Source: Streptomyces sp. NBC_00708 (GTDB taxonomy: Bacteria; Actinomycetota; Actinomycetes; Streptomycetales; Streptomycetaceae). From it: a DNA stretch of 64,000 nucleotides. A model generated the notes under the pieces. That model was not told where the DNA came from, did not search any database, and worked only from the letters and a program-made list of their open reading frames with translations. The stretch lies in NCBI GenBank assembly GCA_036226585.1, contig CP108997.1, positions 4,464,001 through 4,528,000 on the forward strand, written 5' to 3'. This document shows, one piece after another, positions 311-42,356 of the stretch (positions within the stretch are counted from its first letter, which is position 1; each line of letters starts with the position of its first letter). The translations under genes were made by a program, and so were the position numbers.

Positions 311-330
311 GACGCTACGCGCGTAGCGTC
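311..330. promoter_or_regulatory. Nucleoside-regulon palindrome, site 1 (ABC importer operon)
   Basis: GACGCTACGCGCGTAGCGTC is a perfect 20-base palindrome. Its core CTACGCGCGTAG recurs before deoA, add, deoC and the purine nucleoside phosphorylase gene. It lies in the only long gap (196-506) of the transporter cluster. The even symmetry with a central CG step is what LacI-family operators usually look like, but the regulator is not identified. Confidence 0.8.
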
Positions 331-506
331 GGGACTGGGACCGGCCCGGCGCGATACGTTTTCCGCCGCGCCCCGTACGCCTTCCCCCACCCCACCCGCC
401 GTACACCGCCCCACCCGCCGTCGACCGCCTTCCCGTCCTCACCGCCCCCGCCCTCCGCTCCTGTCAAGGAGAGTGCGCCATCAACGCGTCCAGCAGTCCC
501 AACGCC

Positions 507-2090
507 GTGGAGCTCCGCGGTATCACCAAGCGGTTCCCCGGGGTCGTGGCCAACCACGACATCGACATCACCGTGCGCCGCGGCACCGTCCACGCCCTCG
601 TCGGTGAGAACGGCGCCGGCAAGTCCACTCTGATGAAGATCCTGTACGGCATGCAGAAGCCGGACGAGGGCACCATCGCGGTGGACGGCGAGCAGGCCTC
701 GTTCTCCAACCCGGGCGACGCCATCGACCGCGGCATCGGCATGGTGCACCAGCACTTCATGCTCGCCGACTACCTCACCGTCCTGGAGAACGTCGTACTC
801 GGCTCCGAGAAGCTGTACGGCATCGGCGACCGGGCCCGCGCCAAGATCCGCGAGATCTCCGACGCGTACGGCCTCGGCGTCCGCCCGGACGCCATGGTCG
901 AGGACCTCGGTGTCGCCGACCGCCAGCGCGTGGAGATCCTCAAGGTCCTCTACCGGGGCGCCCGCACCCTGATCCTCGACGAGCCCACCGCGGTCCTCGT
1001 GCCGCAGGAGGTCGACGCGCTCTTCGACAACCTGCGCGAGCTCAAGGCCGAGGGTCTGACCGTCATCTTCATCTCGCACAAGCTGGGCGAGGTCCTGTCG
1101 GTCGCCGACGAGATCACCGTCATCCGGCGCGGCACCACCGTCGGCACCGCCGACCCGAAGCACACCACGACCAAGCAGCTCGCCGAGCTGATGGTCGGCA
1201 GCGAGCTGCCCTCGCCGGAGACCCGCGAGTCGACGGTCACCGACACGCCCATGCTCACCGTGGACGGCGTACGGCTCACCGCGACCGACCCGGACGGCGC
1301 CGTGCGCGCCGTGCTCGACGGCATCACCTTCACCATCCACAAGGGCGAGGTCCTGGGCATCGCCGGCGTGGAGGGCAACGGCCAGTCCGAACTGGTCGAC
1401 GCCATCATGGGCATGCGCACCCTGGACGCCGGCACCCTCACCCTGGACGCCGCGGACATCTCCCGCACCCCGACGCGCAAGCGCCGCGAGGGCGGCATGG
1501 CCGTCATCCCCGAGGACCGCCACCGGCACGGTCTCCTCCTGGAAGCCCCCCTCTGGGAGAACCGCATCCTCGGCCACGTCACGGAGCGCCCCAACAGCCG
1601 GGGCGCCTTCCTCGACATCAAGGCGGCCCGCACCGACACCGAGCGGATCGTGCGCGAGTACGACGTCCGCACCCCCGGGATCGACGTCACCGCGGCCTCC
1701 CTCTCCGGCGGCAACCAGCAGAAGCTGATCGTCGGCCGCGAGATGAGCCACGCGCCCAAGCTGCTGATCGCCGCGCACCCCACCCGGGGCGTGGACGTCG
1801 GCGCGCAGGCGCAGATCTGGGACCAGATCCGCGAGGCGCGCGGCGAGGGCCTGGCGGTACTCCTGATCTCCGCCGACCTGGACGAGCTCATCGGGCTCTC
1901 CGACACCCTGCGCGTCATGTACCGCGGCCGCCTGGTCGCGGACGCCGACCCGGCGACCATCACCCCCGAGGAGCTGGGCTCGGCGATGACGGGTGCGGCC
2001 AGCGGCCACCTCGAAGCGCCGGAGGAGGGCGGAGCCACCGCCGCCACGGACGACGACACCGACCCCCGCGAAGGGGGAGAGGACCGATGA
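507..2090 (+). CDS. Nucleoside ABC importer ATPase with two nucleotide-binding domains
   Basis: The 527-residue protein has two ABC domains, as in RbsA- and YufO-type importers. The first has Walker A GENGAGKST at residues 33-41 and Walker B LILDEPT. The second has a degenerate Walker A (GVEGNGQSE), the signature LSGGNQQK, and AAHPTRG where DEPTRG is expected; this asymmetry is usual for BMP-partner ATPases. It overlaps the permease gene by 4 bases. The start is uncertain. GTG 507 has no ribosome-binding site, whereas AAGGAG at 466-471 sits 8 bases before an in-frame ATC at 480 that would add nine residues. Confidence 0.9.
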   Translation: MELRGITKRFPGVVANHDIDITVRRGTVHALVGENGAGKSTLMKILYGMQKPDEGTIAVDGEQASFSNPGDAIDRGIGMVHQHFMLADYLTVLENVVLGSEKLYGIGDRARAKIREISDAYGLGVRPDAMVEDLGVADRQRVEILKVLYRGARTLILDEPTAVLVPQEVDALFDNLRELKAEGLTVIFISHKLGEVLSVADEITVIRRGTTVGTADPKHTTTKQLAELMVGSELPSPETRESTVTDTPMLTVDGVRLTATDPDGAVRAVLDGITFTIHKGEVLGIAGVEGNGQSELVDAIMGMRTLDAGTLTLDAADISRTPTRKRREGGMAVIPEDRHRHGLLLEAPLWENRILGHVTERPNSRGAFLDIKAARTDTERIVREYDVRTPGIDVTAASLSGGNQQKLIVGREMSHAPKLLIAAHPTRGVDVGAQAQIWDQIREARGEGLAVLLISADLDELIGLSDTLRVMYRGRLVADADPATITPEELGSAMTGAASGHLEAPEEGGATAATDDDTDPREGGEDR

Positions 2091-3202
2091 AGAAGATCGA
2101 CAAGGAGCGCCTGCTCCTGGGGATCGCGGCCCCCGTTCTCGCGATCGTGGTCGCCTTCCTGGTGACGGCACTCGTGCTCGCCGCCACCGGCAAGGAGCCG
2201 TTCAACGCCTTCGGCATCATGTTCGACTACGGACTGAAGTCGGACAGCCAGGTCTACATCCTGAACAAGGCGACGACGTACTACCTCGCGGGTCTCGCGG
2301 TGGCCGTCGGCTTCCGGATGAACCTCTTCAACATCGGCGTCGACGGGCAGTACCGCCTCGCCGCGTTCTTCGCCGCCGCGCTCGGCGGCGCGCTCACCCT
2401 GCCCGGCGCGCTGCAGATCCCGCTGATCATCCTCACCGCGATGATCGTCGGCGCCATGTGGGCCGGCATCGCCGGTCTGCTCAAGGTCACCCGGGGTGTC
2501 AGCGAGGTCGTCTCGACGATCATGCTGAACTCCATCGCGACCGCGGTCATCGGCTACCTGCTCCAGCAGAACCGCCTCGGCCACCTCGACGAGGCCGGCA
2601 CCAAGATCTCCACCAAGCCGCTCCCGGAGTCCTCGCACTTCTTCGAGTTCCCGACGACCCCGACCCCGGTCTGGGGCTTCATCGTCGTCGCCGTCGTCGC
2701 GGGCATCGCCTACTGGTTCACGCTCTCGCGCACCCGCTTCGGCTTCGACCTGCGCACGGTCGGCCAGTCCGGCTCCGCCGCCGAGGCCAGCGGGGTCAAC
2801 GTCCGCCGCATGGTCATCACCTCGATGCTCATCTCGGGCGCCGTCGCCGGCCTCATCGGCATGCCGACGCTGCTCAACGACAGCCACGAGTTCAGCGGCG
2901 ACTTCCCCGTGGGCATCGGCTTCACCGGCATCGCCATCGCCCTCCTCGGCCGCAACCACCCCGTCGGCATCGCGCTCGGCGCGCTGCTCTGGGGCTTCCT
3001 GGAGCGCGGCACCGGAAAGCTGGAGTTCGAGGGCTACGACAAGGAGATCGTCGGCGTGATCCAGGGCGTCATCGTCCTGTGCGTCGTCATCGCGTACGAA
3101 GTCGTCCGCCGCTACGGACTCAAGCGCCAGCAGAGCAAGGTCGGCGCGGAACTCGCCGCACAGGCCGCCCGTAACTCCGACCAGCAGGAGGTGTCGGCGT
3201 GA
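2087..3202 (+). CDS. Nucleoside ABC importer permease 1
   Basis: A 371-residue, multi-spanning inner-membrane protein of the BPD_transp_2 type (YufP/RbsC-like). Hydrophobic segments run from about residue 10 to 340, and the core motif FRMNLFNIGVDGQ is typical of the nucleoside subgroup. It starts with ATGA overlapping the ATPase stop and ends with GTGA overlapping the next permease, so the three are translationally coupled. Its neighbours (cdd, deoA) support nucleoside transport. Confidence 0.9.
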   Translation: MKKIDKERLLLGIAAPVLAIVVAFLVTALVLAATGKEPFNAFGIMFDYGLKSDSQVYILNKATTYYLAGLAVAVGFRMNLFNIGVDGQYRLAAFFAAALGGALTLPGALQIPLIILTAMIVGAMWAGIAGLLKVTRGVSEVVSTIMLNSIATAVIGYLLQQNRLGHLDEAGTKISTKPLPESSHFFEFPTTPTPVWGFIVVAVVAGIAYWFTLSRTRFGFDLRTVGQSGSAAEASGVNVRRMVITSMLISGAVAGLIGMPTLLNDSHEFSGDFPVGIGFTGIAIALLGRNHPVGIALGALLWGFLERGTGKLEFEGYDKEIVGVIQGVIVLCVVIAYEVVRRYGLKRQQSKVGAELAAQAARNSDQQEVSA

Positions 3203-4488
3203 CCGTCACGGCGACTTCCACCCCGCCCCCGGCGGCCCCCAAGGTCTCCGGCGGCAAGAGCGGCCGTTCCCGCCTCTCGTTCCCCGTCATCCTGCTGATC
3301 ATCGCGGGCGTCCTGCTCGCGCTGTCCGCCGTGCGCGCCATCACCGGCGCCCAGGACGTCACCTCGGCGGGCCAGATCAGCGCCGCGCTCGCCATGGCCG
3401 TGCCGATCGGCCTCGCCGGTCTCGGCGGTCTGTGGTCCGAGCGGGCCGGCGTGGTCAACATCGGCCTCGAAGGCATGATGATCCTCGGCACCTTCTTCGG
3501 TGCCTGGGCCGGCTGGCAGACCAGCCCCTGGCTCGGCGTCCTCGCCGGTGTCGTCGGCGGCATGCTCGGCGGTCTGCTCCACGCGGTCGCCACCATCACC
3601 TTCGGCGTCGACCACATCATCTCCGGTATCGCGATCAACATCCTGGCGCTCGGTTTCACCACCTACTTCGCCAAGCTGTGGTTCAACACCGGTGAGGCGG
3701 CGGCCAAGGGCGGCTCCCCGAAGCAGTCCCCGCCGGCCGACGAGATCACCTCGGTGACCATCCCGGGCCTCTCCGACGGACTGCACTCCATCGAGAAGCA
3801 CCACTGGTTCTTCGTCTCCGACCTGGCCGGCATCCTCGGCGGCCTGGTCACCAACCTCTCGCTGCTGACGATCCTGGCCATCGTGCTGTTCGTGGCGACC
3901 TTCTTCGTCCTGTGGAAGACCGCGTTCGGCCTGCGGCTGCGCTCCTGCGGCGAGAACCCGGTCGCCGCCGAATCGCTCGGCGTCAACGTCTACACGTACA
4001 AGTACGTGGCCGTGGTCGTCTCCGGCGGCCTCGCGGGCCTCGGCGGCGCCTTCCTCTCCCTGGTCACCTCGCACATCTACAACGAGGGCCAGACCGGCGG
4101 ACGCGGTTACATCGGTCTCGCCGCGATGATCTTCGGCAACTGGCGCCCCGGCGGACTCGCCATGGGCGCGGGCCTGTTCGGCTTCGCCGACGCGCTCCAG
4201 CTGCGCAACGGCGGCGAGTCCGTCCACGCGCTGCTCCTGCTGCTGTTCGTCGTCCTCGTCGGCATCGCCGCCTGGAAGCTCTACCGCAAGAGCTGGCTGC
4301 AGGGCGTCGTCAGCGCGGTCATCGCGGCCGTCGTCCTGGTCTGGTACCTCGGTACGGACAGCGTGCCCACCGAGTTCGTGAGCGCCACGCCGTACATCGT
4401 CACGCTGCTCGTCCTCTCGCTCTCCGCGCAGCGGCTGCGGATGCCGAAGGCGGACGGCATGCGCTACCGCAAGGGCCAGGGCAAGTGA
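3199..4488 (+). CDS. Nucleoside ABC importer permease 2
   Basis: A 429-residue permease of the same family (YufQ-like) with a Pro-rich cytoplasmic N-terminus (about 25 residues) before the first membrane span. The motif AGVVNIGLEGMM mirrors FNIGVDGQ of its partner. The two permeases presumably form the heterodimeric channel. It starts at GTG overlapping the upstream stop and overlaps the cytidine deaminase start by 4 bases. Confidence 0.9.
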   Translation: MTVTATSTPPPAAPKVSGGKSGRSRLSFPVILLIIAGVLLALSAVRAITGAQDVTSAGQISAALAMAVPIGLAGLGGLWSERAGVVNIGLEGMMILGTFFGAWAGWQTSPWLGVLAGVVGGMLGGLLHAVATITFGVDHIISGIAINILALGFTTYFAKLWFNTGEAAAKGGSPKQSPPADEITSVTIPGLSDGLHSIEKHHWFFVSDLAGILGGLVTNLSLLTILAIVLFVATFFVLWKTAFGLRLRSCGENPVAAESLGVNVYTYKYVAVVVSGGLAGLGGAFLSLVTSHIYNEGQTGGRGYIGLAAMIFGNWRPGGLAMGAGLFGFADALQLRNGGESVHALLLLLFVVLVGIAAWKLYRKSWLQGVVSAVIAAVVLVWYLGTDSVPTEFVSATPYIVTLLVLSLSAQRLRMPKADGMRYRKGQGK

Positions 4489-4889
4489 CGGCCCCGGCCT
4501 TCACCGAGGCCGACTGGGAGACCCTGCGGGCCGCCGCCCGGGACGCCATGTCCCGGGCGTACGCCCCGTACTCCGGCTACCCGGTCGGCGTCGCGGCCCG
4601 CGTCGACGACGGCCGTACGATCACCGGCTGCAACGTCGAGAACGCCTCGTACGGGATCGGCCTGTGCGCCGAGTGCGGTCTGGTCTCCCAGCTGCACGCC
4701 ACGGGCGGCGGCCGGCTGACCCACTTCACCTGCGTGGACGGGGCGGGCGAGAGCCTGGTCCCGTGCGGCCGGTGCCGGCAGCTGCTGTACGAGTTCGGCG
4801 GACCGGAACTGGTCCTGGAGACCCCGGACGGCCTGCGCACCCTGGACGAGATGCTGCCGCAGGCCTTCGGCCCGTCGCACCTCGGCTGA
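4485..4889 (+). CDS. cdd: Cytidine deaminase
   Basis: A 134-residue zinc enzyme that turns cytidine and deoxycytidine into uridine and deoxyuridine. The zinc site is complete: Cys61-Ala-Glu63 (in GLCAECG) and Cys94/Cys97 (PCGRC). Length matches the small homotetrameric class. The start is GTG 4485, overlapping the permease stop in a GTGA junction; the reading frame runs open further upstream, but that stretch is antisense-like shadow inside the permease. Being last in the importer operon, it acts directly on imported nucleosides. Confidence 0.93.
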   Translation: MTAPAFTEADWETLRAAARDAMSRAYAPYSGYPVGVAARVDDGRTITGCNVENASYGIGLCAECGLVSQLHATGGGRLTHFTCVDGAGESLVPCGRCRQLLYEFGGPELVLETPDGLRTLDEMLPQAFGPSHLG

Positions 4890-4941: not shown

Positions 4942-4957
4942 CTCTATGCGCGTAGAG
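4942..4957. promoter_or_regulatory. Nucleoside-regulon palindrome, site 2 (deoA)
   Basis: CTCTATGCGCGTAGAG is a 16-base inverted repeat with one mismatched pair (T at 4947). The core differs from CTACGCGCGTAG at that base only. It sits about 50 bases before the deoA start, where it would cover a promoter. Confidence 0.7.
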
Positions 4958-5006: not shown

Positions 5007-6284
5007 ATGGACGCCATCTCCGTCATCCGCACCAAGCGGGACCGCGGCGAGCTGACACCCGAGCAGATCGACTGGGTCATCGACGCGTACACCCGCGGCG
5101 AGGTCGCCGACGAGCAGATGTCCGCGCTGGCCATGGCGATCCTGCTGAACGGCATGAACCGTACGGAGATCGCCCGCTGGACCGCCGCGATGATCGCCTC
5201 CGGCGAGCGGATGAACTTCGACAGCCTCTCCCGCCCCACCACGGACAAGCACTCCACCGGCGGCGTCGGCGACAAGATCACCCTCCCGCTCGCCCCGCTC
5301 GTCGCCGCCTGCGGCGCGGCCGTCCCCCAGCTCAGCGGACGCGGCCTCGGCCACACCGGCGGCACCCTGGACAAGCTGGAGTCCATCCCCGGCTGGCGCG
5401 CCCACCTCTCGAACGCCGAGATGCTGGACGTCCTCGACACCACCGGAGCGGTCATCTGCGCGGCGGGCGACGGCCTCGCCCCCGCCGACAAGAAGCTGTA
5501 CGCGCTGCGCGACGTCACCGGCACCGTCGAGGCGATCCCGCTCATCGCCAGCTCGATCATGTCCAAGAAGATCGCCGAGGGCACCGGCGCCCTCGTCCTG
5601 GACGTCAAGGTCGGCTCCGGCGCCTTCATGAAGACCCTGGACGACGCCCGCGAGCTCGCCTCCACCATGGTCGCCCTCGGCACCGACAGCGGCGTCCGCA
5701 CGGTCGCCCTGCTCACCGACATGTCCACCCCGCTCGGCCTCACCGCGGGCAACGCCCTGGAGGTCCGCGAGTCCGTCGAGGTCCTGGCCGGCGGCGGCCC
5801 CAGGGACGTCATCGACCTCACCCTGGCCCTCGCCCGCGAAATGCTGGACGCGGCCGGGCTCAAGGACGCCGACCCGGAGAAGGCCCTCGCGGACGGCTCC
5901 GCCATGGACGTCTGGCGCCGCATGATCTCCGCCCAGGGCGGCGACCCGGACGCCACGCTCCCGGTCGCCCGCGAGCAGCACGTCATCAAGGCATCCTCCT
6001 CCGGCATCCTGACCCGCCTGGACGCCTACGACATCGGCGTCGCCGCCTGGCGCCTCGGCGCGGGCCGCGCCCGCAAGGAGGACCCGGTCCAGGCCGGCGC
6101 CGGCATCGAGATCCACGCCAAGCCCGGCGACGTGGTCACCGACGGCCAGCCGCTGCTGACGCTGCACACGGACACCCCGGAGAAGTTCGACTACGCCCTC
6201 AAGGCCCTCCCGGACGCGTACGACATCGAGCCGTCGGGCACCCCGTTCACGGCGACCCCGGTCGTCCGGGAGCGCATCGCCTGA
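5007..6284 (+). CDS. deoA: Thymidine (pyrimidine-nucleoside) phosphorylase
   Basis: A 425-residue homodimeric enzyme that splits thymidine and deoxyuridine with phosphate, giving deoxyribose-1-phosphate. The family signature with the phosphate-binding KHSTGGVGDK is at residues 81-90, and the C-terminal domain is complete. ATG 5007 follows the ribosome-binding site GGAAGGA at 4990-4996. It has its own promoter region with the regulon palindrome rather than being read only from the importer operon. Its product feeds the phosphopentomutase/DeoC route; deoC is at 35-36 kb. Confidence 0.95.
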   Translation: MDAISVIRTKRDRGELTPEQIDWVIDAYTRGEVADEQMSALAMAILLNGMNRTEIARWTAAMIASGERMNFDSLSRPTTDKHSTGGVGDKITLPLAPLVAACGAAVPQLSGRGLGHTGGTLDKLESIPGWRAHLSNAEMLDVLDTTGAVICAAGDGLAPADKKLYALRDVTGTVEAIPLIASSIMSKKIAEGTGALVLDVKVGSGAFMKTLDDARELASTMVALGTDSGVRTVALLTDMSTPLGLTAGNALEVRESVEVLAGGGPRDVIDLTLALAREMLDAAGLKDADPEKALADGSAMDVWRRMISAQGGDPDATLPVAREQHVIKASSSGILTRLDAYDIGVAAWRLGAGRARKEDPVQAGAGIEIHAKPGDVVTDGQPLLTLHTDTPEKFDYALKALPDAYDIEPSGTPFTATPVVRERIA

Positions 6285-6661: not shown

Positions 6662-6676
6662 CCGAACGCCGCCGCC

Positions 6677-7696
6677 TCACGCCCCGTCGTCGTCCAGATG
6701 GTCCGGCAGCCCGAACAGCGGGAACCACCGAGGCGTGTCCAGGAAGCAGTGCATGCCCGTGATCGCGCCGTCCGAGATGTCGATGACCTGGACCGCCCAC
6801 GGGACGAAGCCGGGGCCCTCCGGGTTCGGCTTGTAGTGGGCGAAGGCCGGGGTGCCGTTGGCGGAGGTCGCGATCAGGCGGGAGCCGGCGCAGCTCGCGC
6901 CCATGGTGGTCATGAAGCCGGTGATGTCGTCGTGGCCCCGGAGCCAGAGGTCGAACGGCGGCATCGTCATCACCGCGTCCTCGTGGAGGAGGGCGGTCAG
7001 GGCCTTCATGTCGTAGCCCTCGAACGCCGCCACGTACCGCTCCAGGAGCTTCGTCTGCTCCTCGTCCAGCGGGTTCGCCGCGTCGGCGGCCACCGCGTCC
7101 TGGTCGGTCAGCGTGGCCCGCGCGCGCTGGAGGGCGCTGTTCACCGAGGCGACCGAGGTGTCGAGCAGCTCCGCGACCTCCGCGGCCTTCCACGCCAGCA
7201 CCTCGCGCAGGATCAGCACGGCCCGCTGCTTCGGCGGCAGGTGCTGGAGCGCCGCGACGAACGCGAGGCGCACCGACTCGCGCGCCACCGCCGCCTCCGC
7301 CGGGTCGTCGGTCGTCGGGAGGATGCGGCCGTCGGGCATGGGCTCCAGCCAGGTGTTCTCCGGCAGCGGGTTGAGCGCGGCCTGCGCGAGCGGCGTCGGA
7401 CCGGTCAGGTCGACCGGCCGCGCCCGCTTCTTGCCCGCGTTGAGCATGTCCAGACAGACGTTGGTCGCGATGCGGTACAGCCAGGACCGCAGCGAGGACC
7501 GGCCCTCGAACTTGTCGAAGTTCCGCCAGGCCCGCACCAGCGTGTCCTGGACCGCGTCCTCCGCCTCGAAGGCCGAGCCGAGCATCCGGTAGCAGTAACC
7601 GGTCAGCTCGACCCGGTGTCCCTCCAGGCGGCTGTCGATGTCGCCCGACGGCGGGGTCCCCGTACCGGATCCCGCCGCCGCTGCCAGTTCACTCAT
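6677..7696 (-). CDS. ECF sigma factor with SnoaL-like C-terminal domain (SigG-like)
   Basis: A 339-residue sigma factor. Region 2 runs from about residue 30 to 100 (DAVQDTLVRAWRNF), region 4 from about 145 to 200 (LPPKQRAVLILREVL, then the helix-turn-helix VAELLDTSVASVNSAL). The last 130 residues form an NTF2/SnoaL-like domain. This architecture matches the ECF group containing mycobacterial SigG, whose C-terminal domain is thought to control activity in place of a classical anti-sigma factor. ATG 7696 is preferred because GGAGCGG precedes it; GTG 7708 is an alternative. Confidence 0.88.
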   Translation of the reverse strand: MSELAAAAGSGTGTPPSGDIDSRLEGHRVELTGYCYRMLGSAFEAEDAVQDTLVRAWRNFDKFEGRSSLRSWLYRIATNVCLDMLNAGKKRARPVDLTGPTPLAQAALNPLPENTWLEPMPDGRILPTTDDPAEAAVARESVRLAFVAALQHLPPKQRAVLILREVLAWKAAEVAELLDTSVASVNSALQRARATLTDQDAVAADAANPLDEEQTKLLERYVAAFEGYDMKALTALLHEDAVMTMPPFDLWLRGHDDITGFMTTMGASCAGSRLIATSANGTPAFAHYKPNPEGPGFVPWAVQVIDISDGAITGMHCFLDTPRWFPLFGLPDHLDDDGA

Positions 7697-7797
7697 CGCC
7701 CGCTCCACCCCTGTCGTGCTGTGACACCGCTCACTTCACGTAACACGTCGGAAGCTACAGCAGGGGACTGACAACGGGGCGGGAACAGCGGAAAGGG

Positions 7798-13448: not shown

Positions 13449-13481
13449 GCCTTCGCGTTCATCCTGCACGTCCCGATCCAG

Positions 13482-13998
13482 GGACCATCCCCGCGCGTGC
13501 GGGGAGCAGATGTTGAGAGTGCACCGGCCGGCGGCGGTGGGGGGACCATCCCCGCGCGTGCGGGGAGCAGCGCGGCGGCCAAGAGGCCGCGCGCCCGTCG
13601 CTGGGACCATCCCCGCGCGTGCGGGGAGCAGCCTGCTGGAGACGCACGGCGAGAGCCTGGATCGGGACCATCCCCGCGCGTGCGGGGAGCAGCGTACAAG
13701 GGCGTTTCGGCGGTAGACGTGGAAGGGGACCATCCCCGCGCGTGCGGGGAGCAGGCGCTCCGCGGCCGTGTAGCTCTCGTCCATCAGGGACCATCCCCGC
13801 GCGTGCGGGGAGCAGAGGGCCTGGATGTCCGACTGGTTGGGGGTGGCGGGACCATCCCCGCGCGTGCGGGGAGCAGACCTTCGAGAGAAAAAGTGCGAGG
13901 CTGTGACAAGGACCATCCCCGCGCGTGCGGGGAGCAGCTCCCAGCGCCCGCGGTCGTCCATCATCAGCGCGGACCATCCCCGCGCGTGCGGGGAGCAG
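13482..13998 (-). CRISPR. Main type I-E CRISPR array, nine repeats and eight spacers
   Basis: Nine identical 28-base repeats start at 13482, 13543, 13604, 13665, 13727, 13788, 13849, 13910 and 13971. They begin GGACCATCCCCGCG and end TGCGGGGAGCAG on the plus strand. Spacers are 33 bases, one 34 (13693-13726). By comparison with the E. coli I-E repeat (stem CCCCGC/GCGGGG followed by AT-containing 3' handle), crRNA is read from the minus strand, with the leader on the right toward cas3. Spacer 13877-13909 is clearly AT-richer than the others. No spacer could be matched by eye to sequence in this window. Confidence 0.97.
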
Positions 13999-14067
13999 AC
14001 TGCGTGACCTGCGGCTTTACTCGGCGAGGGCCGGGTTTCTGACCACTTTCACAGAATCCGGCATAAC
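13999..14067 (-). promoter_or_regulatory. Leader of the main CRISPR array
   Basis: Read on the minus strand, it contains TATGCCGGATTC followed by TGTGAAAGTGGT (14041-14065) and ends GCAGGTCACGCAGT at the first repeat. The leader of the second array has the same two blocks at nearly the same distance (42 against 43 bases from block to repeat). Conservation between two separate leaders marks these as the integration and promoter signals read by Cas1-Cas2 or transcription factors. Confidence 0.75.
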
Positions 14068-14226
14068 GGCTCCAAGCTACTCATTCGCTTACCAAGTCCC
14101 CAAGTCGAGAGGGGATTTTAGCCGTAAGTCATCCTCGTGATTGAAGCTTCACGGCAACTACCCCTGAATCTATGCAACTTCATCGTATGAACATCTCGCC
14201 TTACCCTCCTCATGTATTCATGATTC
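14068..14226 (+). promoter_or_regulatory. AT-rich control region of the cas operon
   Basis: This gap is the most AT-rich stretch near the island. It holds the inverted repeat TTCAT-CGT-ATGAA (14179-14191) and a tandem ATTCATG pair (14216-14229) that runs into the cas3 start codon. No Shine-Dalgarno sequence precedes ATG 14227, so cas3 mRNA may be leaderless. The inverted repeat is a candidate operator for a repressor of the cas operon. Confidence 0.5.
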
Positions 14227-18832: not shown

Positions 18833-19500
18833 CGACGATCACCACCACCGCTCTGCCGACTCCTCGCAAGCGGGTTGAGGAACTCGCCGGTGCACGCATC
18901 GGCGTGTTCCAACGCGGATACCTGGCCGACGAGTCGAACGCCGTCGCGGCCCTCGCCCGGCTGCGCAGAGGTGCCGGACAGAAGCCGGAGCGCCTGCCCG
19001 ACCTGTGGGCTCTGGTCGACACCTCGCCTCTGCACGTCCCCGCCGACAACGCCCGCGAGCTGAGCGAACCCGAACTCGAACGCGCGGAGAACGCCCTCCA
19101 CACGGCTCTCACGCTGTGGGCGCTGCATCAGCAGTCCCGACGCGACACGGGCATGCATGAACGGGGCGGTCGCGGTAAACCACGCGGCGTCGGCTCCGCC
19201 GTGCGCCGCATGATGAAGCCGGACGAGATCGACGACTCGCTGCGCAAGCGGCTGGTCCGGGCCGGTACGGCGCCGGACCTGTCCACGCTCGCCCAGCGCT
19301 TGCGGGACATCGTTCTGCTGCTGCGCCGCGAGCAGTTCCCCCTCGACTACGCACTGCTCGCCGGGCAGCTCTACACGTGGCAGTGGCCTGACGGCCCTGA
19401 CCGGGTGCGCAGGGAATGGGGGCGGTCCTTCCACGCCCGGCAGGGGGATAAACCGAGGGATGACCTGCAGCCGGGCGACGACGGGCCGGCGGGCGAATGA
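18829..19500 (+). CDS. cse2: Cascade small subunit Cse2/CasB (Cas11e)
   Basis: A 223-residue, Arg-rich helical protein that forms the belly dimer of Cascade and steadies target and non-target strands. The segment GVGSAVRRMMKP and the Arg-rich helices around LRDIVLLLRRE fit the family. The last 25 residues are charged and likely disordered. ATG 18829 lies within the cas8e stop overlap; a longer open frame upstream is a shadow of cas8e. A 91-base gap before cas7e is the longest in the operon. Confidence 0.93.
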   Translation: MTTITTTALPTPRKRVEELAGARIGVFQRGYLADESNAVAALARLRRGAGQKPERLPDLWALVDTSPLHVPADNARELSEPELERAENALHTALTLWALHQQSRRDTGMHERGGRGKPRGVGSAVRRMMKPDEIDDSLRKRLVRAGTAPDLSTLAQRLRDIVLLLRREQFPLDYALLAGQLYTWQWPDGPDRVRREWGRSFHARQGDKPRDDLQPGDDGPAGE

Positions 19501-22304: not shown

Positions 22305-22308
22305 GCCG

Positions 22309-23609: not shown

Positions 23610-23708
23610 GTGGTTCGAGGTATTCGGTGATGGTCGGGGGCTATGCCGGTTTCAGTGAAAGTGGTGCGGAACGGCTCTGCGGAGCGGTACACATGCAGGT
23701 CGCGAAGG
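23610..23708 (+). promoter_or_regulatory. Leader of the second CRISPR array
   Basis: Between cas2 and the first repeat. TATGCCGGTTTC and AGTGAAAGTGGT (23642-23665) match the main-array leader, and GCAGGTCGCG stands close to the repeat in both. This fixes array orientation as plus and shows both leaders descend from one sequence. Confidence 0.75.
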
Positions 23709-23919
23709 CTGCTCCCCGCGCGTGCGGGGATGGTCCCAGCCCGTCCCCGGGCGGCTTCCCCCGTTACTGCTGCTCCCCGCGCGTGCGGGGATGGTCCCCG
23801 CCCGGGACGCGGCGCCCGCACAGACCTGAACTGCTCCCCGCGCGTGCGGGGATGGTCCCGAGGATATCCGCGACGGTGACGTGCTCGTCATCTGCTCCCC
23901 GCACACGCGGGGCCCCGGC
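23709..23919 (+). CRISPR. Second type I-E CRISPR array, four repeats and three spacers
   Basis: Repeats start at 23709, 23770, 23831 and 23892. The first three begin CTGCTCCCCGC and end GCGGGGATGGTCC around loop GCGT. The fourth has a changed loop and loses its last seven to nine bases, as expected for the leader-distal end. Three 33-base spacers lie between. The crRNA strand is plus, opposite to the main array. In the main array the same strand reads loop ACGC, so the repeats differ at two bases. Confidence 0.96.
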
Positions 23920-24836: not shown

Positions 24837-24848
24837 CTACGCGCGTAG
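24837..24848. promoter_or_regulatory. Nucleoside-regulon palindrome, site 3 (add)
   Basis: CTACGCGCGTAG, perfect 12-base palindrome, 16 bases before the add start codon. At this distance a bound repressor would block transcription start or elongation. Confidence 0.75.
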
Positions 24849-24864: not shown

Positions 24865-26019
24865 ATGATGAGCCCCACCCTCAATGTGCCCGGCCCGGAC
24901 CAGATCCGGCGTGCTCCCAAGGTCCTTCTGCACGACCACCTCGACGGCGGGCTGCGGCCCGGCACGATCGTCGAACTCGCCGCCGCGAGCGGTTACGACG
25001 CCCTTCCCGAGACCGAGCCGGACAAACTCGGTATCTGGTTCCGGGAGGCCGCCGACTCCGGTTCGCTGGAGCGGTATCTGGAGACGTTCGCCCACACGTG
25101 TGCGGTCATGCAGACCCGTGACGCGCTCGTCCGGGTCGCGGCCGAGTGCGCGGAGGATCTGGCCGCCGACGGTGTCGTGTACGCCGAGGTGCGGTACGCC
25201 CCCGAGCAGCACCTGGAGGCCGGGCTGACCCTCGAAGAGGTCGTCGAGGCCGTCAACGAGGGGTTCCGGGAGGGCGAGCGGCGGGCCCGCCGGGACGGGA
25301 ACCGTATCCGGGTCGGCGCCCTGCTCACCGCGATGCGGCACGCCGCGCGGTCGCTGGAGATCGCGGAGCTGGCCAACCGCTACCGCGACCAGGGCGTCGC
25401 CGGCTTCGACATCGCGGGCGCCGAGGCCGGGTTCCCTCCCACCCGGCATCTGGACGCGTTCGAGTACCTCAAGCGCGAGAACAACCACTTCACGATCCAC
25501 GCGGGCGAGGCGTTCGGCCTGCCGTCGATCTGGCAGGCGATCCAGTGGTGCGGCGCCGACCGGCTCGGCCACGGGGTCCGCATCATCGACGACATCGAGG
25601 TCGCCGAAGACGGCTCCGTGAAGCTGGGGCGGCTCGCCTCCTACGTACGGGACAAGCGCATCCCGCTGGAGATGTGCCCGACGTCCAACCTGCAGACGGG
25701 CGCCGCGTCCTCGTACGCCGAGCACCCCATCGGGCTGCTGCGCAAGCTGCACTTCCGGGCGACCGTGAACACGGACAACCGGCTGATGAGCGGTACGAGC
25801 ATGAGCCAGGAATTCGAGAAGCTGACCGAGACCTTCGGATACACGCTCGACGACATGCAGTGGTTCACCGTCAATGCGATGAAATCAGCATTCATTCCTT
25901 TCGATGAACGTCTGGCGATGATCAATGACGTCATCAAGCCCGGATATGCCGAGCTGAAGTCCGAATGGCTTTTCGAGCAGACCGCTGCGACCAGCGTGTC
26001 TTCCTCGGTGGCCGGCTGA
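24865..26019 (+). CDS. add: Adenosine deaminase
   Basis: A 384-residue zinc enzyme converting adenosine and deoxyadenosine to inosine forms. Zinc and catalytic motifs are complete: [10 protein letters not shown] near residue 23, the THxGE-like [10 protein letters not shown], and HGVRI after GADRLG; SNLQTGA closes the active site. Length fits bacterial Add. The second ATG (24868) is an equally good start. It carries the regulon palindrome, and its product feeds the purine nucleoside phosphorylase at 41.5 kb. Confidence 0.95.
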
Positions 26020-27507: not shown

Positions 27508-28119
27508 CTACGGCACCCCGATCGAACTCGGTACCGCCTTCGGGCTGGCCTTCGTCTCCGTCGTGCAGAGGTAACCGCGTGCCGGGTAGTTCCCCGGGCC
27601 GCCCAGCGTCACCGTCTCGCCGGTGGTCAGCGGCTCGCTCTCCGTGAAGGTGCAGACGATCTGGGCCAGGGCCTCGGCCGGCAGGTCCTCCGGCTGCTCG
27701 CTGAGCCGCAGCGCGTCCTTCGCGTCGCCCGCGTGCGGACCGGAGACCCTGAGCGACTTCGGGACGTCCGTGGAGAAGCCCGCCCGGCGCTCGTCGGCCG
27801 TGGGCCGTACGCGCAGCTCGTCCAGGAGCGCGGTGGCGATCCGCAGCCGGTCGGACTTGGCCTCCTGGACCTGCACCGCCCGGTCCACCGCCACCAGCTG
27901 CGAGGCGCAGACCAGATAGACCTGTACGGGGATGCCCTGCTCGGCCTGGGACGCGACGTCCTCGGCCGGCATCGCGCACGGCACCCGGGACGGTGCGGCA
28001 CCGGCGTCCACCGGCACCGAGGTCGTACGGATGCCGCAGCCCGTCGCCAGCACGGCACAGAGTGCGGCACCTGCCAGGGCGGCGGCGGTTCGGTGTCCCC
28101 GGCGTTCGCTGCGCCTCAC
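27508..28119 (-). CDS. GerMN-like lipoprotein of the AfsQ operon
   Basis: A 203-residue lipoprotein. The signal peptide with lipobox LATGC puts the lipidated Cys at about residue 27. A sporulation/germination-type GerMN-like domain follows (VQVYLVCASQLVAVDR, with LRVRPTADERRAGF). GTG 28119 overlaps the afsQ2 stop by 4 bases, so it is translated with the kinase. As in S. coelicolor it is likely part of the AfsQ signalling unit at the membrane. Confidence 0.85.
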   Translation of the reverse strand: MRRSERRGHRTAAALAGAALCAVLATGCGIRTTSVPVDAGAAPSRVPCAMPAEDVASQAEQGIPVQVYLVCASQLVAVDRAVQVQEAKSDRLRIATALLDELRVRPTADERRAGFSTDVPKSLRVSGPHAGDAKDALRLSEQPEDLPAEALAQIVCTFTESEPLTTGETVTLGGPGNYPARGYLCTTETKASPKAVPSSIGVP

Positions 28120-29657
28120 GTCGGGTCGTCCTCCTGGTGGTCCGGTATCGATGCGTCGGGATCGTCGGCGGTACGGCTCAGCGCCTCGGCGTCGCGCGGC
28201 AGGCGCAGGACGAAGATCGCGCCGTCGCCGTCCGGCGAGTTCCGGGCGGTGATGTCGCCGTTGTGGATGTGGGCGTTCTCCATGGCGATGGAGAGCCCGA
28301 GCCCGCTGCCTTCCGAACGCGGCCTGGAGGCGCTGGCCTTGTAGAACCGGTCGAAGACGTGCGGCAGCACGTCCTCCGGGATGCCGGGCCCGTGGTCCCG
28401 GACCTCGATGACCAGCTCCTCGCCCTCGATGCGCACCGCGACCCGGACCGGCGAACCGCCGTGCTTGAGCGCGTTGCCGATCAGGTTCGCGAGGATCACG
28501 TCGAGCCGGCGGGGGTCGAGGCGGACCATCATGCCGCGCTCGGCGTCCAGTTCGACCGCGTCCAGCCACGCGCGGGCGTCGATGCAGGCGGTGACCTGGT
28601 CGGCCACGTCCACGTCGTCGAGCACCAGACGGGCCGTGCCCGCGTCGAAGCGGGTCACCTCCATCAGGTTCTCCACCAGGTCGTTGAGGCGCCGGGTCTC
28701 GCTGACCACCAGGTGCACGGCGGGCGCGATCATCGGGTCGAGGCTGTCCGCCTCCTCCTCCAGGACCTCCGCGACGGCGGTGATCGCGGTGAGGGGCGTA
28801 CGCAGCTCGTGCGACATGTCGGCGACGAACCGGCGGCTGGCCTCCTCGCGGGCGCTCATGTCCGCGACCTTCTTCTCCAGCGAGCTGGCCGTCCGGTTGA
28901 ACGTCCGGGAGAGATCGGCCAGTTCGTCGGTGCCGGACACCACGAGCCGGGTGTCGAGCTTGCCCTCGCCGAGCTTGCGGGCCGCGTCCCCGAGCCGCTG
29001 CACCGGCCGCAGCACGGTGGTGGCCGCCGCCTGCGCGAGCAGCGCGGAGCCGACCAGGGCGAGCGCCGTGGCGATCCCGAGCGACCAGGCGAGGGAGCTG
29101 AGGTCCTGGCGCTCCTGGTCGAGCGACTTCAGCATGTAACCGGTCGGCCCGCCGCCGATGATCTTCGTACCGGCGACGAGGTACGGCGTACCGCGGATCG
29201 AGGTGCGCTGCCAGAACAGGTGGTACTCGTACTTGTTGCCCGCCTTGACCGGCTGCTTGCGGTCCACCTGCTCCTGGAGCGACACCGGTACGTTGCTGCG
29301 CGTGAAGGTGTCCAGGTCGGAGTTGCCGACGATGGGCTTGCCCGGGTCGCGCTCGTCGATCAGGAGCACGCTGTAGCCGGGGCTGCTGCTCGCCATCTGC
29401 ACGGCGGCCGTCTGCAGGTCCTCCTTGGTGGGACGCAGCGGCAGCGAGGCCGCCCGGGTCTGCATCTCCTGGCGGAAGTCCCCGAGCGCCGCGTCCTGCG
29501 TACGCGTCAGCACGGCCTCGCGGTTGAGCCAGTACGCGATGCCGGAGGCCGAGACCGCTGCGGTCAGCGCGACCAGGGCGAACACGATGACGAGCCGCAG
29601 CCGCAGGCTGGTCCAGCGGAGCCCGGCGAGCAGGCCCCGCCGTACAGCCGTGCTCAC
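28116..29657 (-). CDS. afsQ2: Sensor histidine kinase AfsQ2
   Basis: A 513-residue membrane kinase: first span at about residues 20-45, extracellular sensor to about residue 180, second span, HAMP domain, HisKA with phosphorylatable His in FVADMSHELRTPLTAI, and HATPase motifs (NLIGNALKHG, DHGPGIP, GSGLGLSI). Encoded after afsQ1 with a 4-base overlap. In S. coelicolor, AfsQ1/Q2 link nitrogen or glutamate signals to antibiotic production. Confidence 0.93.
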   Translation of the reverse strand: MSTAVRRGLLAGLRWTSLRLRLVIVFALVALTAAVSASGIAYWLNREAVLTRTQDAALGDFRQEMQTRAASLPLRPTKEDLQTAAVQMASSSPGYSVLLIDERDPGKPIVGNSDLDTFTRSNVPVSLQEQVDRKQPVKAGNKYEYHLFWQRTSIRGTPYLVAGTKIIGGGPTGYMLKSLDQERQDLSSLAWSLGIATALALVGSALLAQAAATTVLRPVQRLGDAARKLGEGKLDTRLVVSGTDELADLSRTFNRTASSLEKKVADMSAREEASRRFVADMSHELRTPLTAITAVAEVLEEEADSLDPMIAPAVHLVVSETRRLNDLVENLMEVTRFDAGTARLVLDDVDVADQVTACIDARAWLDAVELDAERGMMVRLDPRRLDVILANLIGNALKHGGSPVRVAVRIEGEELVIEVRDHGPGIPEDVLPHVFDRFYKASASRPRSEGSGLGLSIAMENAHIHNGDITARNSPDGDGAIFVLRLPRDAEALSRTADDPDASIPDHQEDDPT

Positions 29658-30331
29658 TGCGGCGAGTCCAGCCGGTAACCCACGCCCCGCACGGTACGGA
29701 TCAGGGTCGGCGACGACGGTACGTCCTCGACCTTGGCGCGCAGGCGCTGGACACAGGCGTCCACCAGCCGGGAGTCACCGAGGTAGTCGTGTTCCCAGAC
29801 CAGGCGCAGCAGTTGCTGCCGCGACAGGGCCTGGCCGGGCCGGCGGCTCAGTTCGAGCAGGAGTCGCAGCTCGGTCGGCGTGAGCTGGAGATCCTCGCCG
29901 TTCTTCGTGACGGTCATGGCGGAGCGGTCGATGACCACGTTCCCGAACGTCGCGGAGTCGGTCGACTCCCGTTCGCCGCGGCGCAGCACCGCGCGGATAC
30001 GGGCGTCGAGCACCCGCCCCTGCACGGGCTTGACCACGTAGTCGTCGGCGCCGGACTCCAGGCCCACCACGACGTCGATGTCGTCGCTGCGGGCGGTCAG
30101 CAGGATGATCGGCAGCTGGTCGGTGCGACGGATGCGCCGGCACACCTCGAATCCGTCGATCCCGGGCAGCATCACATCCAGCACGACCAGGTCCGGGCGC
30201 TGCTCGCGCAGCAGGTTGAGGCCGTCCTCTCCCGTCGCCGCGGTGGCCACACGGTGGCCCTGGCGTGACAGCGAGAGTTCGAGGGCCGTGCGGATGGCGT
30301 CGTCGTCCTCGATCAGCAACAGGAAAGGCAC
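29654..30331 (-). CDS. afsQ1: Response regulator AfsQ1
   Basis: A 225-residue OmpR-type regulator. The receiver domain has the acidic pocket LIEDDD, phosphorylated Asp in LVLDVMLPG, and Lys in DYVVKPV. The winged helix ends in RTVRGVGYRLDSPQ. GTG 30331 gives the length remembered for S. coelicolor AfsQ1; an in-frame ATG at 30349 would add six residues. Divergent from sigQ, with the AfsQ1 box between them. Confidence 0.94.
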   Translation of the reverse strand: MPFLLLIEDDDAIRTALELSLSRQGHRVATAATGEDGLNLLREQRPDLVVLDVMLPGIDGFEVCRRIRRTDQLPIILLTARSDDIDVVVGLESGADDYVVKPVQGRVLDARIRAVLRRGERESTDSATFGNVVIDRSAMTVTKNGEDLQLTPTELRLLLELSRRPGQALSRQQLLRLVWEHDYLGDSRLVDACVQRLRAKVEDVPSSPTLIRTVRGVGYRLDSPQ

Positions 30332-30444
30332 TTGGTCATTCTGACCCATGGGGCGCCCCAGTTCGACAGTTGGTCCCCCCTGATGCGTGCCCCATACGTC
30401 CCTCATGCATCAGGAAGCACGGGTTCGTGCCACCGCCAGGCCCT

Positions 30445-30460
30445 GTGACAGGCCTGTGAC
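30445..30460. promoter_or_regulatory. AfsQ1 binding box upstream of sigQ
   Basis: GTGAC (30445-30449), six bases, GTGAC (30456-30460). This matches the published GTnAC-n6-GTnAC AfsQ1 consensus exactly and lies in the afsQ1/sigQ divergent region (30332-30544). Confidence 0.85.
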
Positions 30461-30544
30461 AGTCGGCGGACAGCGCCATGAAACTGCCCCGGCAAGCTCA
30501 TTGGCACAAGGAACGGACGGACTCCACCCGATGGGGGGCGCGAG

Positions 30545-31288
30545 ATGAACGCAACTCACAGCATCAACGCAAGCGCAGTTGTCACGCGTCTCCACGATGT
30601 CGGGCGGAGCACCGAGAAGTCCGGCGCCGCAGTGAACGGACGGGGGTGCGTTCGAGGCGCCGGGCGTCAGCACACGTCATTCATGACGGTGGTTGACGCG
30701 GGTAGCGGGGGAAGCGCATACGGGGAGGGCACGGGGGAGCGGAAGGCACCGGAACGGTCCGAGGACGCCGAAGCGGCGTTCACGGCCTACGTCCGGGAGC
30801 GCCGCGCCTCCCTGTACGCCACCGCCTACCACCTGACCGGTGACCGGTTCGAGGCCGAGGACCTGCTGCAGAGCGCCCTCTTCTCGACGTACCGGGCCTG
30901 GGACCGCATCAGCGACAAGGCCGCTGTCGGCGGTTATCTGCGCCGCACGATGACCAATCTGCACATCAGCGCCTGGCGCAGGCGCAAGCTGAACGAATAC
31001 CCGACCGAGGAGCTGCCGGAGACGGCGGGCGACACGGACGCGATGCGTGGTACGGAGCTGCGCGCCGTGCTCTGGCAGGCGCTGGCGCGCCTGCCGGAAC
31101 TGCAGCGCACGATGCTCGTCCTGCGGTACTACGAGGGCCGTACGGACCCGGAGATCGCGTCCATCCTCGACATCAGTGTCGGCACGGTGAAGTCGAGCAT
31201 CTGGCGGTCGCTCCGCCGGCTGCGCGAGGACGAGGTCCTCAGCTTCGGCCGTGACGAGGAGGAGTCCTTCGGCGAGCTGGTGGCCTGA
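30545..31288 (+). CDS. sigQ: ECF sigma factor SigQ
   Basis: A 247-residue SigE-subfamily sigma factor. Region 2 is at about residues 90-150 (RFEAEDLLQSALFSTYRAWD) and region 4 at about 180-235 (LPELQRTMLVLRYYEG, then IASILDISVGTVKSSIWRSL). The first 70 residues are a Gly/Arg-rich extension absent from most ECFs; ATG 30683 (MTVVDAG) is a shorter alternative start. The AfsQ1 box upstream and divergent afsQ1 place it under AfsQ control, as in S. coelicolor. Confidence 0.88.
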   Translation: MNATHSINASAVVTRLHDVGRSTEKSGAAVNGRGCVRGAGRQHTSFMTVVDAGSGGSAYGEGTGERKAPERSEDAEAAFTAYVRERRASLYATAYHLTGDRFEAEDLLQSALFSTYRAWDRISDKAAVGGYLRRTMTNLHISAWRRRKLNEYPTEELPETAGDTDAMRGTELRAVLWQALARLPELQRTMLVLRYYEGRTDPEIASILDISVGTVKSSIWRSLRRLREDEVLSFGRDEEESFGELVA

Positions 31289-35210: not shown

Positions 35211-36158
35211 TCAGTCCACCGTCACGTAATCGGGGCCGGAGTAACGGCCGGTGCTGAGCTTCTGGCGCTGCATCAGCAGATCGTTCAGCAGGCTGGAGGC
35301 GCCGAAGCGGAACCAGTGGTTGTCCAGCCAGTCCTCGCCCGCCGTCTCGTTCACCAGCACCAGGAACTTGATCGCGTCCTTGGAGGTGCGGATGCCGCCG
35401 GCCGGCTTCACGCCGATCTGGACGCCGGTCTGCGCGCGGAAGTCGCGCACCGCCTCCAGCATCAGCAGGGTGTTCGCGGGCGTGGCGTTCGTCGCCACCT
35501 TGCCGGTCGAGGTCTTGATGAAGTCCGCGCCCGCCAGCATCCCGAGCCAGGAGGCCCGCCGGATGTTGTCGTACGTGGACAGCTCGCCGGTCTCGAAGAT
35601 CACCTTGAGGCGGGCGGACCCGCACTCCGCCTTCACGGCGAGGATCTCCTCGTACACCTTCAGATAGCGGCCGGCGAGGAACGCCCCCCGGTCGATCACC
35701 ATGTCGATCTCGTCGGCACCGGCCGCCACGGCGTCCCGGACGTCCGCGAGCTTCACGTCGAGCGCGGCGCGCCCGGCGGGGAAGGCCGTGGCGACGGACG
35801 CCACCTTCACGCCGGAGCCGGCCAGGGCCTCGGCGGCGGTGGCCGCCATGTCGGGGTAGACGCAGACCGCGGCGGTGCGCGGGGTCGTCCGGTCGGTGGG
35901 GTCGGGGTTGACGGCCTTGGCGGCGAGCGCCCGGACCTTGCCGGGGGTGTCCGCGCCTTCCAGCGTCGTCAGGTCGATCATCGAGATGGCGAGGTCGATG
36001 GCGTACGCCTTGGCCGTCGTCTTGATCGACCTGGTTCCGAGGGCGGCTGCGCGCGCTTCGAGGCCGACCGCGTCGACGCCGGGCAGCCCGTGCAGGAAGC
36101 GGCGCAGCGCACTGTCGGACGCCGTCGCGTCGGCGAATGCGGGGAGGGTGGTGGGCAT
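35211..36158 (-). CDS. deoC: Deoxyribose-phosphate aldolase
   Basis: A 315-residue aldolase splitting deoxyribose-5-phosphate into glyceraldehyde-3-phosphate and acetaldehyde. The Schiff-base lysine is in GADFIKTSTGK; GVKPAGGIRT carries the second lysine. It is longer than the E. coli enzyme (259) through an N-terminal extension usual in actinobacteria. First gene of the deoC-ALDH-ALDH' operon and preceded by the regulon palindrome. GTG 36167 and 36164 are alternative starts. Confidence 0.94.
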   Translation of the reverse strand: MPTTLPAFADATASDSALRRFLHGLPGVDAVGLEARAAALGTRSIKTTAKAYAIDLAISMIDLTTLEGADTPGKVRALAAKAVNPDPTDRTTPRTAAVCVYPDMAATAAEALAGSGVKVASVATAFPAGRAALDVKLADVRDAVAAGADEIDMVIDRGAFLAGRYLKVYEEILAVKAECGSARLKVIFETGELSTYDNIRRASWLGMLAGADFIKTSTGKVATNATPANTLLMLEAVRDFRAQTGVQIGVKPAGGIRTSKDAIKFLVLVNETAGEDWLDNHWFRFGASSLLNDLLMQRQKLSTGRYSGPDYVTVD

Positions 36159-36177
36159 GGTCACCACCTGAGCATAT

Positions 36178-36189
36178 CTACGCGCGTAG
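36178..36189. promoter_or_regulatory. Nucleoside-regulon palindrome, site 4 (deoC)
   Basis: CTACGCGCGTAG, perfect, 19 bases before the deoC start on the minus strand. The flank TCTACGCGCGTAGC is not extended further. Confidence 0.75.
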
Positions 36190-41490: not shown

Positions 41491-41494
41491 AGCG

Positions 41495-42319
41495 TCAGAT
41501 GCGGTCCAGCACCCGCGCCAGCAACGACCCCATCCGCGCGGCGGAGTCGCGACCCGCCTGCAGAACCTCCTCATGGTTCAGCGGCTCACCGCTCAGCCCC
41601 GCCGCCAGGTTCGTCACCAGGGACAGGCCGAGCACCTCGGCCCCCGCCTCCCGGGCGGCGATCGCTTCCAGGACCGTGGACATGCCGACGAGGTCGCCGC
41701 CCATCACACGGACCATGTTGATCTCGGCCGGCGTCTCGTAGTGCGGGCCGGGGAACTGCACGTACACGCCCTCTTCGAGCGTCTCGTCGATCTCCTTGCA
41801 CAGGGCCCGGAGCCGGGGCGAGTACAGGTCCGTCAGGTCGACGAAGTTGGCGCCGACGATCGGGGACGCCGCCGTGAGGTTGATGTGGTCGCTGATCAGG
41901 ACCGGCTGGCCGGGGCGCATGCCCTCGCGCAGGCCGCCGCAGCCGTTCGTCAGGACCACGGTCCGGACGCCCGCGGCCACGGCGGTACGCACGCCGTGGG
42001 CGACGGCGGCGACGCCGCGACCCTCGTAGAAGTGCGTGCGGCCCAGGAACACCAGGGCGCGCTTGCCGCCGATCACGTGCGAGCGGACCGTGCCGCCGTG
42101 GCCCTCGACGGCGGGCGCCGGGAAGCCGGGCAGGGCGGTCACCGGGAACTCGGCCTCCGGAACACCGAGCGCCGCCGCGGCGGGCGCCCAGCCGGAGCCC
42201 ATCACGAGGGCGACGTCGTGAGTCTCGGCACCGGTCAGCTCGCGCAGGCGGGCGGCGGCGTCGGCGGCGGCGGCGTGCGGGTCGCCCTGGATGTGGTCCG
42301 GAATAAGTGATGCGTTCAC
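41495..42319 (-). CDS. punA: Purine nucleoside phosphorylase
   Basis: A 274-residue trimeric-type phosphorylase that splits inosine and guanosine (and deoxy forms). Family landmarks are [14 protein letters not shown], the substrate stretch [14 protein letters not shown] and [14 protein letters not shown]. With add it forms the purine arm of nucleoside breakdown. Preceded by the regulon palindrome. Confidence 0.93.
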
Positions 42320-42344
42320 GCGGATGAGCGTAACCGCTGATTCC

Positions 42345-42356
42345 CTACGCGCGTAG
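42345..42356. promoter_or_regulatory. Nucleoside-regulon palindrome, site 5 (punA)
   Basis: CTACGCGCGTAG, perfect, 25 bases before the punA start on the minus strand. Nothing else resembling an operator was seen in the 165-base gap to the next gene. Confidence 0.75.

Follow-up and report, generated by a model that had tools for sequence, protein, structure and literature searches.

A conserved palindromic operator before nucleoside and purine genes of Streptomycetaceae and a glnR-adjoining LacI-family protein as its candidate regulator

In a 64,000-nucleotide stretch of Streptomyces sp. NBC_00708 (contig CP108997.1, positions 4,464,001 to 4,528,000; the whole stretch is called the window below), promoters of genes for nucleoside uptake and breakdown share a 12-base palindrome, CTACGCGCGTAG. 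Comparative evidence makes this palindrome, as read from sequence, a secure predicted operator with its own regulon, and a repressor is the likely mode of action. The protein that binds it is probably the LacI-family product of a gene outside the window that adjoins glnR, of the SCO4158 type of S. coelicolor, which is the best candidate found; this assignment is correlational.

Four exact copies of CTACGCGCGTAG were found in the window, at 315-326, 24837-24848, 36178-36189 and 42345-42356, and these are also the only ones in the whole genome (G000, 7.65 Mb), nothing further being present on its three contigs. They precede the importer operon with cdd, add, deoC and punA, as an earlier note on this DNA had claimed from the window alone. 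The same note had placed a one-mismatch copy before deoA at 4942, where the copy is real but stands at 4944-4955, and had set the first site within a perfect palindrome of 20 bases, which proved to be one of 22 bases (310-331). The sites and the genes behind them are as follows.

310..331, plus strand: operator, 22-bp perfect palindrome with the core CTACGCGCGTAG at 315-326, before the nucleoside ATP-binding cassette (ABC) importer/cdd operon
507-2090, plus strand: ABC importer ATPase
2087-3202 and 3199-4488, plus strand: ABC importer permeases
4485..4889, plus strand: cdd, cytidine-deaminase-like open reading frame (ORF), named from its inspected translation and an earlier label, without a family search
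4944..4955, plus strand: operator CTATGCGCGTAG, one mismatch, before deoA
5007..6284, plus strand: deoA, thymidine phosphorylase (NCBIfam PRK05820, 644.8 bits)
24837..24848, plus strand: operator before add
24865..26019, plus strand: add, adenosine deaminase (NCBIfam PRK09358, 644.4 bits)
35211..36167, minus strand: deoC, deoxyribose-phosphate aldolase (TIGR00126, 177.8 bits), with an alternative ATG at 36158
36178..36189, minus strand: operator before deoC
41495..42319, minus strand: punA, purine-nucleoside phosphorylase (TIGR01698, 319.1 bits)
42345..42356, minus strand: operator before punA

The substrate-binding gene of the importer, bmp (Bmp/PnrA-like), is situated immediately to the left of the window, with its end near position 195; from the family and neighbours of the importer we infer that nucleosides are its substrate. 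Between site and first listed start codon there are 180 bases at the ABC ATPase, 51 at deoA, 16 at add and 25 at punA, within the range of 16 to 180 bases given earlier, but at deoC only 10 to the first GTG (19 to the ATG). A fifth-order Markov model trained on the window and on the collinear regions of relatives predicts 0.0066 exact copies per 64 kb, close to the previous rough estimate of 0.01, and 0.79 per 7.65 Mb, against four observed in each case. Given this genome-wide expectation, the count alone does not make the case, which rests on how the copies cluster and on the genes that they precede. When one mismatch is allowed, the genome gives no more than background (29 forward matches, including the four exact copies, versus 32 for the reversed pattern), and the seven matches with up to two mismatches in the window are not unusual, since 16 of 100 shuffles reach that number. 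Numerous copies at unrelated genes across the genome, named beforehand as an outcome that would speak against a dedicated regulon, were not found. The site is an even palindrome whose halves, CTACGC and GCGTAG, meet in a central CpG, the shape expected of LacI-family operators.

None of the 150 genomes searched within the genus lacked the pattern CTAYGCGCGTAG, and in the family it was present in 120 of 121 genomes, covering 16 of its 17 genera; in the sole family genome without it, G543, close variants stand at punA, add and deoC. A scan of the class returned it from 40/40 genomes of the genus versus 25 of 354 genomes of other families, with one copy each in the latter except for three exact copies in G233, a genome set aside since no nucleoside genes, named by inspection, were among the adjoining listed ORFs. 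The exact 12-mer precedes punA in each of the best 80 punA loci of a protein scan, which come from named genomes all labelled Streptomyces except one Kitasatospora, and it precedes 57 of the 58 deoC genes found among these loci. All 14 non-Streptomyces genomes of the family examined carry a copy within two mismatches upstream of punA (10 exact), and none of 16 genomes from other families does, one of these 16 having only a distant punA relative.

Collinear regions were compared in 16 genomes, namely G000, eight reached via punA coordinates, two via DeoR coordinates and five via motif coordinates, with genes located by tblastn. A site within one mismatch was retained at add in 15/15 genomes (14 exact), at deoC in 15/15 (10 exact) and at punA in 14/14 (11 exact), so that the loss of the sites before orthologues, raised earlier as a possible objection, was not observed for these three genes. 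At bmp, the identical variant CTACGCGCGTTA stands in 12/12 genomes, two mismatches from the consensus and yet fixed, and only 1 of 101 control starts in these regions has a copy within two mismatches. The ten regions chosen without use of the motif gave the same picture (add 9/9, deoC 10/10, punA 9/9, bmp 7/7, importer 3/7, deoA 1/8). The twelve columns are invariant and the flanks more variable; as the sites had been picked by exact match, this invariance rests on the punA and deoC loci and on collinear retention. The proposal of one dedicated regulon is supported on two sides: all but one of the 17 family genera have the pattern, and sites are retained at orthologues in regions of which ten out of 16 were motif-blind.

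The regulon extends beyond the salvage genes to which it had at first been confined. In G000, a site CTACCCGCGTAG stands before purS of the purSQL operon (G000:C1:3773371), and a site within two mismatches lies 65-103 bases upstream of purS in 21 of the 30 family genomes with a purS locus (31 searched); the remaining loci comprise one with a stray copy at -250 and eight without a site. A purF site was seen in two loci, from two genomes, brought in by the pattern and, within two mismatches, in 5 of 14 further promoters (from 16 stretches, in two of which purF was not found), with none in the three Streptomyces promoters among these 14. The sites of purS, bmp and purF usually combine one perfect half with one degenerate half. 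Pattern-derived loci of other species have sites before a secreted, extracellular-nuclease-like protein with a lamin-tail domain, before a 5'-nucleotidase-like protein and before a second adenosine deaminase. The sites at purSQL and, in some genera, purF thus make this a nucleoside plus purine regulon.

Three pattern scans yielded 65 family loci, 21 loci of other families being left out, and 52 of the 65 could be assigned to a target; four of the target classes (nuclease, nucleotidase, HAD and second deaminase) had themselves been drawn up from this set of loci, which makes their 10 entries partly circular. The other 13 comprise eight in which the pattern lies within codons for TTRIAL in a transporter-lipoprotein-like gene (L188, L189, L193, L198, L202, L206, L208 and L213), read as coincidence, two at purF, and three without an assigned target. 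In these last three (L061, L211 and L215), motif copies near position 1501 have no linked nucleoside gene that could be recognised.

The position of the sites within the promoters was compared with -10-like boxes read by eye in G000. The right arm of the site runs into TAGAGT at deoA and into TAGAAT at purS, and the two fixed changes at bmp yield TTACGAT at this arm. At deoC, add and punA the box lies 1-11 bases beyond the site, with TTAGAGT 3 bases after it at add and TTACGCT 11 bases after it at punA; the box of the importer promoter is uncertain. The start codons of add and punA stand close behind the box, like those of leaderless transcripts, and the add transcript is probably leaderless. 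Since the sites overlap or abut -10-like boxes, a bound protein would block RNA polymerase, which points to repression.

The earlier note had suggested a LacI-like regulator and had seen no matching gene in the window. Profile search found 30 LacI domains over the cut-off in the genome and none in the window, so the statement holds for LacI, but not for regulators at large, as genes of the DeoR and TetR families are present. The regulator genes in question are the following.

G000:C1:3889493-3890536, minus strand, outside the window: LacI-family candidate gene (L037), directly downstream of a glnR-like gene
44844..45809, plus strand: DeoR-family regulator, about 2.5 kb from punA (Pfam DeoRC, 169.7 bits)
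45841-46593: TetR-family gene, from the family search of the window

The candidate has the LacI helix-turn-helix and hinge (PF00356, 52.3 bits, cut-off 27) and a periplasmic-binding-protein-like effector domain (PF13377, 101.1 bits). Its gene was found in 17/17 genera of the family at 69-100% identity and in 31/31 Streptomyces genomes, in one of them (G010) as two frames; among 13 genomes of other families, 12 gave paralogue-level matches only (at most 38% identity where listed) and one none. In all 17 genera it follows immediately on a GlnR-like gene, and this position, together with the family, identifies it with SCO4158. The neighbourhoods inspected showed no sugar operon next to the gene. 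Across 47 rows from 46 genomes, the residues of the protein that bind DNA or form the hinge hardly vary. The promoter of the gene holds, in 14 of 17 genera, an operator-like copy with 2-3 mismatches, 21-22 bases before the GTG, in which the right half of the motif is fused to a -10-like TAGACT; CGCGTAG occurs there in 13/17 genera versus 6 of 542 background starts, and CGCGTAGACT in 30/30 Streptomyces loci. The genera of G535, G538 and G543 are without this promoter copy, without a purS site and have 0-2 canonical copies.

Reciprocal-best comparison was made between 28 LacI proteins of G000 (two of the 30 over the cut-off, missed by the gene caller, were dropped) and three LacI-poor genomes of the family with 29 LacI matches in all. 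Four proteins were reciprocal-best in all three, L037 at 75-88%, L043 at 80-87%, L033 at 49-73% and L035 at 37-77% identity. Among these four, a fixed-place upstream operator-like copy was found for L037 only, some start calls of L043 and L033 orthologues having failed. The LacI guess thus gains support, short of proof, from the matching range and from the conserved half-operator in the gene's own promoter; the regulator gene with its own copy, which had been suggested as a check, was found in so far as the copy is a half-operator and not a full one.

On the proposed mechanism, a dimer of the candidate would clamp a 12-14-bp site with the central CpG, on or beside the -10 box, and exclude RNA polymerase until a nucleoside-derived ligand binds the dimer and releases the operator. 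The regulon would serve the use of nucleic-acid breakdown products through the binding protein, the importer, cdd, deoA, add, deoC and punA, with purSQL as a further predicted target, joined by purF in some genera and by extracellular-nuclease-like, 5'-nucleotidase-like or second adenosine deaminase genes in some genomes. The candidate probably also limits its own gene through the half-operator fused to the -10 box of that gene.

Several findings weigh against this reading. The candidate's own site amounts to no more than half an operator, its conserved part lying over the -10 box, and it is not rare for the best copy within 290 bases of a start to have three mismatches (63 of 585 starts). The purS sites of G542 and G548 are poor (4 and 3 mismatches) in genomes that keep the candidate-promoter copy, and few canonical copies are also found in genomes keeping that copy, such as G537. 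G010 retains four motif copies with the candidate gene in two overlapping frames (G010:C2:3170764-3171865), possibly a sequencing error. Conservation within one mismatch is partial at the importer ATPase (7/12 collinear genomes) and at the own site of deoA (3/13), the latter figure being low presumably because deoA often shares the cdd operon. Regulator profiling covered only the LacI genes and the DeoR gene of the window. Lastly, the pocket residues 190 and 192 of PurR are not conserved in the candidate, and its ligand is consequently not readable by homology.

The extent of the profiling bears on the alternative that another regulator, of the LacI, TetR, GntR, MarR or a similar family, reads the operator and that the half-operator of the SCO4158-type gene is a coincidence of its -10 box. 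A gapless palindrome of 12 bp is compatible with TetR or GntR types too, and many regulators must be family-universal. This alternative is unlikely, though it has to be reckoned with, as the LacI candidate fits the range of the motif and its central CpG, has its own half-site and has no sugar operon in view beside it. The DeoR-family protein of the window, whose S. coelicolor counterpart is SCO4920, is a distinctly improbable repressor; it would fill the role that DeoR has in E. coli, but at a site of another sequence. Deoxynucleoside control is a tradition of its family, its gene is near punA in 79/80 punA loci (the best 80 of the protein scan) and no more than 3.1 kb away from it in 10 of the 14 other genomes of the family (one has a distance of 9 kb, and three have the two genes on separate contigs), and orthologues of at least 74% identity are present in 18/18 family genomes searched. 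Yet orthologues of 54-70% identity in another family (f17; G202, G347, G321 and G185), which share the helix stretch SEVTVRRDVR although neighbouring helix-turn-helix residues differ, go with only 0-1 motif copies, and the promoter of the DeoR gene has strongly conserved blocks with no motif copy among them, so that this gene fits worse than the LacI candidate as reader of the operator. The blocks, TATACCACTTGG and TATTCGGCGCAAACTGCTGAAAA at 44700-44845, are highly conserved in 79 loci.

That the sites are bound by an activator instead of a repressor appears quite improbable. The purF sites, in the two and the five loci, lie about 73-95 bases before the start, far upstream of the -10-like box and in a place compatible with activation, but the other sites examined in G000 overlap or abut such a box, apart from the uncertain importer box. 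It is hardly credible that the copies are no operator at all and represent chance or a structural or methylation motif. The background level of one-mismatch copies elsewhere and the coincidental TTRIAL loci (8/65) could be cited in its favour, but exact sites at 80/80 punA and 57/58 deoC genes, controls at 1/101 and twelve invariant columns between variable flanks, together with collinear retention, already largely refute it.

Two other leads were dropped. The first was L020, a gene of the LacI family with a copy of the motif, differing at one position, 166 bp before its helix-turn-helix codons (G000:C1:2418872). It was abandoned because a glycoside-hydrolase-like gene with a TGGGAGCGCTCCCA box adjoins it, so that it is probably CebR-like, and because one-mismatch matches are at background. 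L078, a MarR gene near a one-mismatch copy, was judged a chance case on the same background.

Known regulators of nucleoside and purine genes resemble the candidate in part. E. coli PurR has LacI architecture and controls a purine biosynthesis regulon through a palindromic operator with a central CG but another operator sequence; the candidate shares the architecture and, as predicted, purine biosynthesis targets, whereas nucleoside uptake and breakdown dominate the regulon in Streptomycetaceae. In comparison with PDB, the candidate matched PurR chains at an E-value of about 1e-42 and CcpA chains slightly better, and its 173.9 bits with the NCBIfam PurR equivalog lie below the cut-off of 501. 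R190 and T192, the corepressor residues of E. coli PurR, and the hinge residue L54 are replaced by T/S/I, P and M respectively (47 rows, with alignment gaps nearby). E. coli CytR governs much the same gene set, namely nucleoside transport, cdd and the deo genes, from weakly conserved sites at which it acts with CRP; here, on the other hand, the site is nearly invariant and lies in the core promoter, and the NCBIfam CytR score is 160.9 bits (cut-off 436). E. coli DeoR controls deoxynucleoside catabolism, but the DeoR-family protein of the window reaches 71.5 bits against the cut-off of 244 of the DeoR equivalog model. Corynebacterium UriR, AdeR and HpxR are LacI-family nucleoside proteins with local action, whereas the predicted targets of the candidate are scattered, and its score with NCBIfam UriR is 118.8 bits (cut-off 550). 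In the accessible part of a survey, AdeR, HpxR and UriR are called local LacI nucleoside regulators and PurR one for purines, PurR being reported solely from three gammaproteobacterial orders (PMC4052901).

A literature search that covered few subscription papers found no regulon with this motif and no described regulator for these operons, in line with the earlier note, which knew of no such Streptomyces regulon. Meng et al. (2012) reportedly dealt with SCO4158 and pigment effects, to go by a reference-list entry. The string CTACGCGCGTAG occurs in 2 of the papers searched and TACGCGCGTA in 8, and to judge by their titles and abstracts none of these concerns Streptomyces or nucleoside control. 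A 14-bp LacI site with a central CG, RTCATWCGYATGAY, is documented for Streptomyces in extracts of PMC12292694. In the available passages of PMC9739823, SCO4158 is the LacI gene downstream of glnR (SCO4159) in S. coelicolor, is abundant in phosphate limitation and might regulate glnR, and no target regulon is stated for it. In the accessible passages of other literature, SCO4158 is listed for an ArgR box and for a carbon response, the gene after it is given a possible promoter, and no nucleoside targets are named. A Streptomyces iModulon study mentions, in the portion available, a purine iModulon without detail (PMC11538686), which may overlap the present regulon.

Other features of the window were noted. 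Between deoA and add there is a type I-E CRISPR-Cas locus (13472-23865; Cas3, Cas8e, Cas11e, Cas7e, Cas6e, Cas1e and Cas2e), with an array on either side; the two arrays, in which 9 and 3 repeats were found, have opposite orientations. Shortly after the end of deoA, on the other strand, 6677-7708 encodes a protein that joins sigma-70 region 2/4 to a SnoaL-like domain. At 28116-31288 a histidine kinase, an OmpR-type response regulator and a sigma factor adjoin one another, and from the gene order of S. coelicolor we take this trio to be probably AfsQ2-AfsQ1-SigQ.

The analysis yields a precise operator, its targets across a family of 17 genera and the SCO4158-type candidate, named and open to test, so that an orphan regulator beside glnR gains a predicted regulon. 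A broader reading is put forward tentatively, with a little less than even confidence: a single glnR-linked LacI repressor unique to Streptomycetaceae would join the jobs that E. coli divides between CytR and PurR, coupling nucleic-acid scavenging to de novo purine synthesis, with an unrelated operator and its own effector pocket. If true, the scavenging side would consist of nuclease, nucleotidase, importer and phosphorylases. Since the gene adjoins glnR and the protein is reported to be abundant when phosphate is limiting, feeding on nucleic acids may be linked to nitrogen or phosphate status in organisms whose nucleoside metabolism feeds purine and nucleoside antibiotics as well as growth on decaying matter.

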